NCBI RefSeq assembly: GCF_000152905.1
Contig: NZ_CH672419.1
Span: 52,850-116,849, forward strand
DNA from: Nitrobacter sp. Nb-311A
GTDB taxonomy: Bacteria; Pseudomonadota; Alphaproteobacteria; Rhizobiales; Xanthobacteraceae
Direction: 5' to 3'
Length of the DNA stretch: 64,000 bases
Shown: piece after piece, positions 3,894 to 33,285 of the stretch
Layout: the number at the start of each line of letters is the position of its first letter
Position numbering within the stretch: position 1 is the first letter of the stretch
Translations under genes and position numbers: made by a program
Notes under the pieces: model-generated
Database searches by the model: none
Told to the model about the DNA's origin: nothing
The model's input: only the letters and a program-made list of their open reading frames with translations

Positions 3894-3928
3894 CCTTGAC
3901 CGAATAGACCAGGACTGCGGTCGAAGCT

Positions 3929-4074
3929 AGAGCCTTTCTGCTCCTGATTGAATTGCAAGCGGGGTTCTCGGATTCTGATTTGACGCGTTTCCGTCGCGCG
4001 AACCAGTATCCACTTCGCTCGAAAACATGATCCCGAAAAGGGAAAACCGGCTTTCGGAGGAGAAGATCATGCTC
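3929..4074. repeat. Mosaic intergenic repeat (modules A/B plus RIME-like palindrome)
   Basis: A degenerate copy of the TCTGAT...ATCAGA hairpin module is followed by the module resembling GACGCGTTTTC...CACTTCGCTTGAAAA, and then a palindrome running from ACATGATCCCGAAAAG to GATCATGCTC (4025-4074). The same modules recur near 21.5, 32.0, 35.2, 44.1 and 63.3 kb. Confidence 0.75.
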
Positions 4075-22184: not shown

Positions 22185-22262
22185 TAGCGTTTTCGAACAA
22201 AGCATAGCCTCGGGCTTGACCCGAGGATGAACTTCAGTTCGCGTGAAGAAAACGCGTCAGAT
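22185..22262. repeat. Repeat with CCTCGGG hairpin (module D) and inverted module B
   Basis: CCTCGGG (22208-22214) and CCCGAGG (22220-22226) form a perfect hairpin. TTCGCGTGAAGAAAACGCGT follows, which is module B in reverse orientation compared with the copies at 32.0 and 44.2 kb. Confidence 0.65.
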
Positions 22263-22383
22263 CAAGATCGGAGAGTCTTCCACCGTTTTCCGTGAAGCGG
22301 TGAAGGACCCCGGGTTACTCAATGGCGGGCCTCCCGCTTCCGATGGAAGCGGAGAGTTCGCGTGTCGCTCGCGAGAACGAGAT

Positions 22384-31349: not shown

Positions 31350-32009
31350 ATGACTGCTCACGACCGGAATTTCGATGGAGTCGAACGGCGTGGCCTGATG
31401 TTCGTGCTATCGTCGCCTTCCGGTGCCGGCAAGACCACACTGTCGAGGCTGCTGATCGAGCGCGTCAAAGGCCTGAGCCTGTCGGTCTCCGCGACCACGC
31501 GACCGATGCGGCCGGGCGAGGTCGATGGTCGTGATTATAAGTTCGTCGACGGGGCGACCTTTGCAACCATGGTCAAGCACAACGATCTGCTGGAATGGGC
31601 TGTGGTGTTTGACAATCGCTACGGCACGCCGCGCGCTCCAGTAGAGGCGGCCCTGTCATCTGGCCGCGACGTATTGTTCGATATCGACTGGCAAGGCACG
31701 CAGCAATTGCGGGAGAAGGCACGAGCTGACGTGGTCAGCGTCTTTATTCTGCCGCCGTCTGCCGCTGATCTGGAACGACGTCTGCATACCCGCGCCCAGG
31801 ATGCCGACCATGTCATCCGTGAGCGAATGGACCGCGCTACACATGAACTCAGCCACTGGGCCGAGTACGATTACATCGTCATCAACAAGAATGTCGACGA
31901 AGCGTTCTCCGAGGTCCAATCGATTCTGAAGGCGGAAAGGCTCAAGCGCGAACGCCAAACCGGATTGACGGCGTTTGTACGCGAATTGCAGCGGCAACTC
32001 GAGACTTAG
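31350..32009 (+). CDS. gmk: Guanylate kinase
   Basis: 219 residues. P-loop SSPSGAGKTTLSRLL at about 21-35, then VSATTRPMRPGEVDGRDYKF, the GMP-binding LEWAVVFDNRYGTPRAPVEA and FDIDWQGTQQLREKA. It phosphorylates GMP to GDP and is essential. It starts three bases after yicC, so translation is coupled. A repeat element follows. Confidence 0.96.
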   Translation: MTAHDRNFDGVERRGLMFVLSSPSGAGKTTLSRLLIERVKGLSLSVSATTRPMRPGEVDGRDYKFVDGATFATMVKHNDLLEWAVVFDNRYGTPRAPVEAALSSGRDVLFDIDWQGTQQLREKARADVVSVFILPPSAADLERRLHTRAQDADHVIRERMDRATHELSHWAEYDYIVINKNVDEAFSEVQSILKAERLKRERQTGLTAFVRELQRQLET

Positions 32010-32011
32010 TG

Positions 32012-32108
32012 CCGTTTCGCTTCGATTGAATCAGAAGCGGGGCTCTCAGATTTTGATTTGGCGCGTTTTCTTCACGCGGCCCCATCCTCGGGTCAAGTCC
32101 GAGGACCG
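32012..32108. repeat. Mosaic intergenic repeat (modules A, B, D)
   Basis: CGCTTCGATT-GA-ATCAGAAGCG is the module A hairpin with a 1-base gap; GCGCGTTTTCTTCACGCGGC is module B; TCCTCGG (32085-32091) and CCGAGGA (32099-32105) form module D. It separates gmk from the convergent gene. Confidence 0.75.
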
Positions 32109-32111
32109 ATC

Positions 32112-33056
32112 CTACGTCGTTGCTCCACGTGAGGCGCGCGCCAAAATCTCCATGATGTCGCGCGATTGCGCCTCGATCTCCCGGCGTGTGCGCTGCACGT
32201 CGCTACGGGACGTCTGCGCTGTATCGGCCTCCTTTTGCTTCCCTGGCGGAGGACTACCCTGGCGGATCAAATCCTCGATCAACCCCGAGCGCCCGACGTG
32301 CAAGAAGCTGCTCAGGCTCCCGAACTTGATAGCTGCGAATCCAAGGAACCCTGCAAAGGCTAGCGCGCCAGCAAGCCCACCCAGCAGCATTGATGACGAA
32401 TGAGACTGAATTTCCTCCTCGGGAGCGCTGACAACGGCTGAAGCTAAGCTTGGCTCGCTGTGTTCGCCGAACGCCTGTTTAGCAGGTTCGACTGTTGCCG
32501 AAGGAACCGGCGGATCGTTCGGAGCCTGCGGATCAGGCGTGACAGCGGCTGGTTCCGGCGGTTGCGTCGCCGCATTGACGACCGGTGCTGGAGGGGGCGC
32601 CGGATCGGGCCACTGCGTGGCAGCAGGCTGCGAGATACTCGCATTTTGCGCAGCCTCGGCGGAAGAATCCGTCGTGGAGGGCGGGGGATTGGCGTCGGCT
32701 GGATCGTTCGCGCTTGTCGCGTCATCGAACTCCGCATGTGCATTCGTAATGGACGGCCGGAGAGGCGGTGGGGACGACGTCAGCGCCGGCTTATCCGGCG
32801 CGGGAACGGACGGCGCCGGCTTTGCTGCGGTTTCCTGCGCTGTCTTTCCGCGTCCTTTGCCGAGATACCAACAGTGACGCTTCGTTCCCGGCTCGACGCG
32901 ATAGTACCAGTGATCTCCGCGCGGCGTTGTGGCGCCAGGCTTTGCCAGGCATGTATCGTCTGCGTAGGCCCGACCCTGGACGGCGACCGCAAGCATGCCA
33001 CCCGTGAATAAAGCAACCCAAAAGGTTGAGAGACGTTTTCCCGCGCGGTTTGACAT
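32112..33056 (-). CDS. Unrecognised membrane protein: secreted Cys/Trp domain, proline-rich linker, TM helix, charged tail
   Basis: 314 residues from the ATG at 33056 (MSNRAGKRLSTFWVALFTGG). I do not recognise the family. Visible parts in order: a signal peptide with probable cleavage after AYA; a small domain with DDTCLAKPGATTPRGDHWYY followed by RVEPGTKRHCWYLGKG, having two Cys and three aromatic residues likely to be structural; about 130 residues rich in Pro, Ala and Ser; a hydrophobic helix (SSMLLGGLAGALAFAGFLGF); and a basic C-terminus with a helix (SDVQRTRREIEAQSRDIMEI). The layout suggests the Cys/Trp domain in the periplasm, a linker across the periplasm or wall, and a cytosolic tail. 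Alternative starts exist upstream. Confidence 0.7.
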   Translation of the reverse strand: MSNRAGKRLSTFWVALFTGGMLAVAVQGRAYADDTCLAKPGATTPRGDHWYYRVEPGTKRHCWYLGKGRGKTAQETAAKPAPSVPAPDKPALTSSPPPLRPSITNAHAEFDDATSANDPADANPPPSTTDSSAEAAQNASISQPAATQWPDPAPPPAPVVNAATQPPEPAAVTPDPQAPNDPPVPSATVEPAKQAFGEHSEPSLASAVVSAPEEEIQSHSSSMLLGGLAGALAFAGFLGFAAIKFGSLSSFLHVGRSGLIEDLIRQGSPPPGKQKEADTAQTSRSDVQRTRREIEAQSRDIMEILARASRGATT

Positions 33057-33285
33057 GCATATCCCCGATGACAAGATTCAGAATGCTTTTTCGTTAAATT
33101 GTCGGGAAAGACTTGGGTCGCATTGCGCCGCAAATCCGGAATGGTCGAGGCGGAATTGAGGCTAATCGCCTTCTTCCCGTCCATTTTTTCAGGAGGACAG
33201 CGGCAGCCCAAGTTTCTATCGAGGCAGGTCGGAGCGGCGCAATTTAGCTGGCCGACGTTCGATGCGCACCGGGCGCCGCGCGGCC

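Follow-up and report, generated by a model that had tools for sequence, protein, structure and literature searches.

A 64,000-nucleotide stretch of the Nitrobacter sp. Nb-311A genome (hereafter the window; the host assembly is 4.1 Mb in 44 contigs) contains a gene for an apparently exported, membrane-anchored protein with a small N-terminal Cys/Trp hairpin. Judging from its sequence, this hairpin is not an orphan but part of a small, undescribed domain family, since the same hairpin was found in two further protein types of Bradyrhizobium-type genomes, namely the HWVYRMDGHRKCWF short-loop paralogs and the YWSYRLIDGRKCWYEG small exported-looking proteins. The gene is under purifying selection, which is strongest in the hairpin domain, the transmembrane (TM) helix and the C-terminal helix. 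Many genomes of Bradyrhizobium, Nitrobacter and their relatives encode this protein, for which there is no family name; proteins of this general build, in which a Pro-rich arm connects a small exported domain to a TM anchor, are familiar. A preliminary description of the gene had put forward a lineage-specific, unrecognised protein. This part of the description holds, and its view of a single protein was incomplete, as the hairpin occurs in two other architectures and the linker carries conserved motifs.

Gene structure and protein layout

The complete ORF spans positions 32112–33056 on the minus strand, with the ATG at 33056 and the stop codon at 32112–32114, and codes for 314 amino acids; the ORF call is corroborated by the purifying selection described below. 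By eye, an SD-like GGGGA was read 5 nt upstream of the ATG (33062–33066, minus strand). The ORF coordinates, and the presence of the HWYYR (residues 49–53) and HCWYLG (residues 61–66) motifs, agree with the preliminary description.

All features of the protein are given in minus-strand coordinates. A signal peptide at residues 1–32 (32961–33056) was recognized from a basic n-region, a hydrophobic core and the A-Y-A that stands before DDTC. It is followed by the Cys/Trp hairpin domain at residues 34–68 (32853–32957), which was delimited by alignments and the profile and is predicted to form a two-strand hairpin, and by a Pro/Ala-rich linker at residues 69–218 (32403–32852), with 42% Pro+Ala, 60% Pro+Ala+Ser+Thr, a net charge of -13 and pLDDT values below 50 except at residues 182–185. 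Two short motifs lie in the linker: SITNAHAEF at residues 102–110 (32727–32753; family pattern S[VI]x[ND]A[RH]AE) and QWPDP at residues 148–152 (32601–32615; family pattern [RQ]W[PSAN]). The TM helix at residues 219–247 (32316–32402) was assigned by hydropathy, by the low dN/dS of the segment and by a helix at residues 220–255 of the full-length model. The tail covers residues 248–314 and ends in a putative amphipathic helix at residues 284–311 (32124–32207), for which the model, a hydrophobic moment test and a conserved motif provide the evidence. The signal peptide, motif domain, linker, single TM helix and helical tail had all been anticipated in the preliminary description. Its basic tail was borne out only in part, the 67 residues being only weakly basic with 11 K/R versus 9 D/E, and the linker measures approximately 150 residues instead of the approximately 130 that had been claimed.

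We infer that the N-terminus of the window protein is exported. Bacterial lipoproteins carry Ala, Gly or Ser ahead of the first Cys of the lipobox. The residue that precedes the invariant Cys in 33 aligned rows was Glu, Thr, Asp or Asn in 30, Ser in two and Gly in one; since it is Thr in the window protein, a lipoprotein was rejected.

Gene order and purifying selection

The window gene faces gmk in convergent orientation, and 229 bp separate it from ksgA, which lies upstream. Gene order was compared among 40 loci, hand-picked from the single-sequence and order-wide profile matches and hence not a random sample. Convergence with gmk was observed in 26 of these (25 by tblastn, and L109 by a profile match together with the motif), and 23 of the 26 stretches include ksgA, at varying distance, on the opposite flank of the gene. 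In at least L080 and L082, the gap to gmk is large enough for an ORF or contains one. The remaining 14 of the 40 loci comprised four short-loop paralogs and 10 long-type copies located elsewhere. Ten gmk-linked stretches were read in detail, and in eight of them what we take to be a zinc alcohol dehydrogenase-like gene lies between the gene and ksgA; such a gene is absent from the corresponding gap of the window (33057–33285). No neighbor was seen as a constant functional partner in the 40 loci compared by tblastn or in the 10 read in detail, consistent with the earlier statement that the gene lies between gmk and ksgA without one. The conserved flanking blocks include what are presumably envelope genes (mltG; surA, lptD, lptG, lptF), which weakly favors an envelope role.

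A separate observation concerns the gap between gmk and the gene (32005–32112), which is occupied by one copy of a dispersed repeat, roughly 70–105 bp long, that has no Rfam match at the gathering threshold. At least 41 matches to this repeat, the gap copy included, are present in the genome, 40 of 217 candidates having been scored, and two more copies lie in the window at 3928–4000 and 22208–22275.

Comparison with the N. vulgaris ortholog (76% identity) yielded a dN/dS of 0.31 overall, with values of 0.10 for the domain, 0.10 for the TM helix and 0.17 for the C-terminal helix, versus 0.42 for the signal peptide, 0.43 for the linker and 0.33 for the remaining tail. Two further relatives gave overall values of 0.31 and 0.33; because overall dS exceeds 1 in the two more distant pairs, their dN/dS values are rough. 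In each of the three pairs, dN/dS was smaller in the domain, TM helix and C-terminal helix than in the signal peptide, the linker and the remaining tail, apart from one TM value that is undefined. The overall and domain dN/dS values against N. vulgaris, together with the adjacency to gmk kept in 26 of the 40 loci, show that this is not a chance ORF.

Conservation and predicted structure of the hairpin domain

The domain has the signature C-x12-HWYYR-x8-CWYL within 35 residues. Residues C36, P40, H49, W50, Y52, C62 and W63 were invariant in 33 aligned sequences, and equally so in a 30-row alignment. A profile scan of the collected loci gave 77 distinct matches, 72 of which possess both cysteines and Trp63; the other five were weak, partial matches from outside the host family, in which one or both Cys columns are gapped, and substitution of a Cys by another residue was not seen in any of the 77. 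At position 49, Arg or Trp replaces His in nine of the 77 matches. The motif is thus conserved in relatives, as the preliminary description had supposed. Since the Cys pair is invariant in a domain that is presumably exported, a C36–C62 disulfide is likely.

AlphaFold modeling of the domain fragment produced a two-strand hairpin (fragment residues 16–23 and 28–35) whose predicted strands carry HWYYR and HCWYL. The model was built from seven sequences and is of modest confidence, with block pLDDT values of 71, 75, 81 and 62 for residues 1–40 and a mean of 67.7. The full-length model displayed helices at residues 5–27, 220–255, 259–265 and 284–311, the last with block pLDDT values of 79 and 81 at residues 291–310; because its mean pLDDT was only 43.7, it was left out of the fold search and Foldseek was run with the domain fragment alone. 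The best hit had an E-value of 4.8, and a 35-residue hairpin gives little signal in such a search. The domain profile returned no match among PDB sequences at E up to 10.

Searches with the window protein gave no match in Pfam or PADLOC, a best E of 6.5 in NCBIfam that fell over the low-complexity linker, and a best E of 0.9 in PHROGs. When 31 family members were scanned singly, scattered matches were made by one to three members each, with best E-values of 0.013 in Pfam and 0.0032 in NCBIfam. The reading of the protein as one of no known family therefore withstood the family, PDB sequence and fold searches alike, including the profile and structure searches with the N-terminal domain, in which no characterized family was matched. 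The open-licence literature held no relevant title on the motif or the protein among the matches listed, and a report may be in print elsewhere.

The hairpin in other protein types

The window domain and the CWYEG proteins share the signature C-x(n)-W-x-[YW]-R-x(6,8)-C-W-Y. Profile comparison with hhalign, in which the pairwise E-values are not database-scaled, assigned probabilities to the window domain of 98.5 for the short-loop type and 96.8 for the YWSYRLIDGRKCWYEG type, and of 90.4 between these two.

The HWVYRMDGHRKCWF short-loop paralogs resemble the window protein in the hairpin, in a DARAE-type linker motif (6 of 6) and in a TM segment (4 of 6 by the cut-off used; four of eight short-loop proteins fell below the hydropathy cut-off and were dropped). 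They differ in having a loop of six residues, as opposed to eight in the window type, and a tail of 12–47 residues in the four with a TM segment; moreover, they did not adjoin gmk in the four loci examined. Three paralogs had no match in Pfam, and the neighbors of the short-loop genes gave no functional hint.

The YWSYRLIDGRKCWYEG proteins, with the consensus YWSYRLIDGRKCWYEGKPxLSKSLLxWP, likewise have a loop of six residues versus eight, and are distinguished by an extra LSKSLLxWP strip and by the absence of a TM segment after the domain. This type was detected in 3 of 297 genomes at E below 1e-20, and the one protein compared with Pfam had no match. The two types are found together in one genome (G122), with one HWVYRMDGHRKCWF and one YWSYRLIDGRKCWYEG-type copy and 1.3 kb between the motifs. 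Loci combining YWSYRLIDGRKCWYEG with LSKSLLxWP are L067 (plus strand), L115–L118, L160 and L161, and a similar FExRWxxRV stretch closes the proteins of L160 and L161. A search with the second hairpin type also gave weak matches in other families; six of these loci (L162–L166 and L169) were scanned, a loose motif was seen in L162 only, and the matches were judged to be due to chance.

Plasmid p195_1 of Bradyrhizobium sp. 195 encodes a protein (L158, 5857–6588) that distantly matches the domain region, with 33% over 54 residues at E 6e-3. The protein is annotated as hypothetical, the plasmid is typed as conjugative, and this copy gave no functional hint. With regard to the alignments, L019 and L024 were omitted from A2 and L027, L029 and L034 from A3; L032, L033 and L035 are outside A1–A3, of which L032 and L035 duplicate L003 and L006.

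Linker, TM segment and C-terminal helix among relatives

A pattern requiring both cysteines retrieved 69 distinct proteins, 61 of which have the eight-residue loop and are referred to as the long type. A hydrophobic TM segment was present in 58 of the 61; the other three (L024, L111 and L134), which are short frames, were set aside. The distance from CWY to the TM segment ranged from 123 to 187 residues in the 58 proteins, with a median of 157.5. For 56 of the 58, net charge was more positive over the 25 residues that follow the TM segment than over the 25 that precede it, a bias that fits a cytosolic C-terminus.

Three patterns were counted in the 26 gmk-linked orthologs, with permutation of each linker or tail as the shuffling control. 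The pattern [ND]A[RHPL][AT][ED], mostly seen as SVANARAE, occurred in all 26 (0.6 after shuffling), [RQ]W[PSAN], typically RWP, in 20 (1.8 after shuffling), and a C-terminal EIExLL-type pattern, typically EIEQLL, in 23 (2.0 after shuffling). Because the proteins are related and the patterns were drawn up with the same sequences in view, these counts speak for conservation and not for independence. Since short motifs are common to the gmk-linked orthologs, the linker is not featureless. Among nine copies with a TM segment that are not linked to gmk, the same three patterns were found in two, none and three, respectively. The helical hydrophobic moment of window residues 289–308 was matched by 395 of 10,000 shuffles; in the C-terminal segments of ten relatives, the corresponding fraction was below 0.05 in eight and not in two.

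Distribution

A single-sequence search of the host bacterial family found a match in 51 of 149 genomes at E up to 0.01. The profile search, in which up to the best 30 candidates per genome were scored, found a match in 95 of 248 genomes and none in 153; 92 of the matches were at E below 1e-8, a count that omits G041, G073 and G889 (best E 2.8e-4 to 0.0086). In the order, 25 of 397 genomes had a match at E up to 0.01, and the 16 strong matches (E below 1e-17) were all in the host family. The nine matches from other families (E 0.001 to 0.008) extended over no more than 24 of the 39 profile positions, in-frame stops interrupted four of them, and all were judged to be chance. Among 398 genomes of the phylum, 10 matches were obtained at E up to 0.001, again all in the host family. 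Up to the best 19 candidates per genome were scored in the order and phylum searches, and absence from a genome is, with such limits of 19 or 30, not absolute. Within these family, order and phylum sets, the gene is thus lineage-specific as had been suggested, and the distribution in the order, which the preliminary description had named as a check, points the same way.

The host genome gave no convincing second copy in the profile search, the next best E being 0.07; the single-sequence search gave a stop-broken match at E 0.0022. Within the genus, the gene is present in seven of the nine genomes shown. It is absent from G061 and G102, in whose gmk–ksgA stretches tblastn with the protein found nothing better than E 1; both genes are in place there, with aligned ends 24 bases apart.

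Proposed function

We tentatively regard the window protein as an inner-membrane-anchored envelope tether or scaffold, which would connect a cytosolic partner with a ligand in the cell wall or outer membrane. The signal peptide would export a 35-residue, probably disulfide-stapled β-hairpin, and the protein would span the inner membrane once in a type I orientation, with an exported N-terminus and a cytosolic C-terminus. The presumably disordered Pro/Ala linker, of 120–190 residues, would hold the hairpin off the membrane and could reach peptidoglycan or the outer membrane; the linker lengths measured in the 58 proteins are compatible with a crossing of the periplasm. Aromatic and basic residues of the hairpin (H, W, Y, R, W, Y) may bind an envelope ligand, most likely a glycan, as their conservation suggests, and the linker motifs and C-terminal amphipathic helix, likewise conserved, may bind protein partners and so couple an envelope feature to a cytosolic one. 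The gene itself, its conservation, layout, motifs, selection and distribution are shown by the data; we infer the export, the type I topology and the disulfide from the sequence features; the ligand, the partners and the tether role are guesses. In favor of a tether we count the constant layout with its charge bias, the cysteine pair, the predicted hairpin, the low dN/dS of the domain, TM helix and C-terminal helix, the linker and tail motifs and the amphipathic C-terminal segment. Against it speak the Foldseek search, which gave the hairpin no structural match pointing to glycan binding, the absences from genus and family genomes taken up below, the limited basis of the hairpin model and low pLDDT of the full-length one, and the motifs, whose patterns were written with the sequences in view and are missing from most copies not linked to gmk.

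A wider form of this proposal is somewhat more doubtful. In this form, the hairpin would define a family of ligand-binding domains, so far undescribed, that the Nitrobacter/Bradyrhizobium lineage uses in at least three architectures, and the gmk-linked protein would be a linker specific to the lineage that spans the envelope and, by way of defined short motifs, joins a cytosolic partner to peptidoglycan or the outer membrane. If this were true, the repertoire of domains on display in the bacterial periplasm would gain a small, probably disulfide-stapled hairpin, and the invariant residues, conserved motifs and natural absences would provide well-defined handles on an envelope protein.

The natural absences also bear on a rather unlikely reading, in which the protein is a lineage-specific accessory with a minor or redundant envelope role and its adjacency to gmk is inherited gene order without any specific partner. 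The loss from two of nine genus genomes, where gmk and ksgA have been brought together, and the lack of a match in 153 of the 248 family genomes fit such a role, and for the same reason no basic envelope function depends on the gene; however, the dN/dS of 0.10 for the domain and TM helix versus N. vulgaris and the conserved motifs argue for a specific, selected function. We consider it unlikely that the protein is a TM sensor, in which the hairpin would detect the periplasmic redox state or a small molecule and signal to a cytosolic partner bound to the C-terminal helix. The Cys pair shared by all 72 domain matches of full length and the conserved motif of the C-terminal helix are what a sensor would display, but a disordered linker of 123–187 residues would transmit conformation badly and couple the domain poorly to the TM helix, and the loci examined revealed no regulator gene as a constant neighbor. 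Least probable is a shed ectodomain, in which cleavage of the linker (e.g. at SVANARAE or RWP) would make the hairpin a released or surface-bound factor: conserved short motifs inside an otherwise variable linker and the same hairpin in YWSYRLIDGRKCWYEG-type small exported-looking proteins, where no TM segment follows it, agree with this reading, but shedding alone leaves unexplained why the TM and C-terminal helices are constrained about as much as the domain.

Resemblance to known layouts

The envelope tether that we favor has the outline of two described protein types. TIGR04211 SH3-and-anchor proteins (YgiM type) possess a signal peptide, a small exported beta domain, a variable region and a C-terminal TM anchor, and the predicted layout of the window protein is alike in each of these parts. 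Membership was rejected: one of the 31 members of the hairpin family matched at E 0.58, the window protein had no match at E up to 1, and the SH3 domain was unmatched.

FimV/HubP polar landmark proteins are described in PMC12918733 as having an exported domain, a TM region and a cytosolic C-terminal region with a conserved end. The likeness would lie in the single-span type I layout of exported domain, TM helix and cytosolic C-terminal region. Unlike these proteins, the window protein had no Pfam match to a LysM-like domain, nor was there one among the matches of the 31 members; the extensive acidic cytosolic region contrasts with the short window tail and its slight excess of K/R over D/E; and a C-terminal TPR/FimV domain was not seen in the window protein, which matched nothing in Pfam and nothing meaningful in NCBIfam. 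The window protein was hence not assigned to FimV/HubP in spite of the similar predicted layout. At the level of sequence, the hydropathy and charge bias of the window-type proteins fit a single TM segment with an exported N-terminus of the FimV/HubP type.
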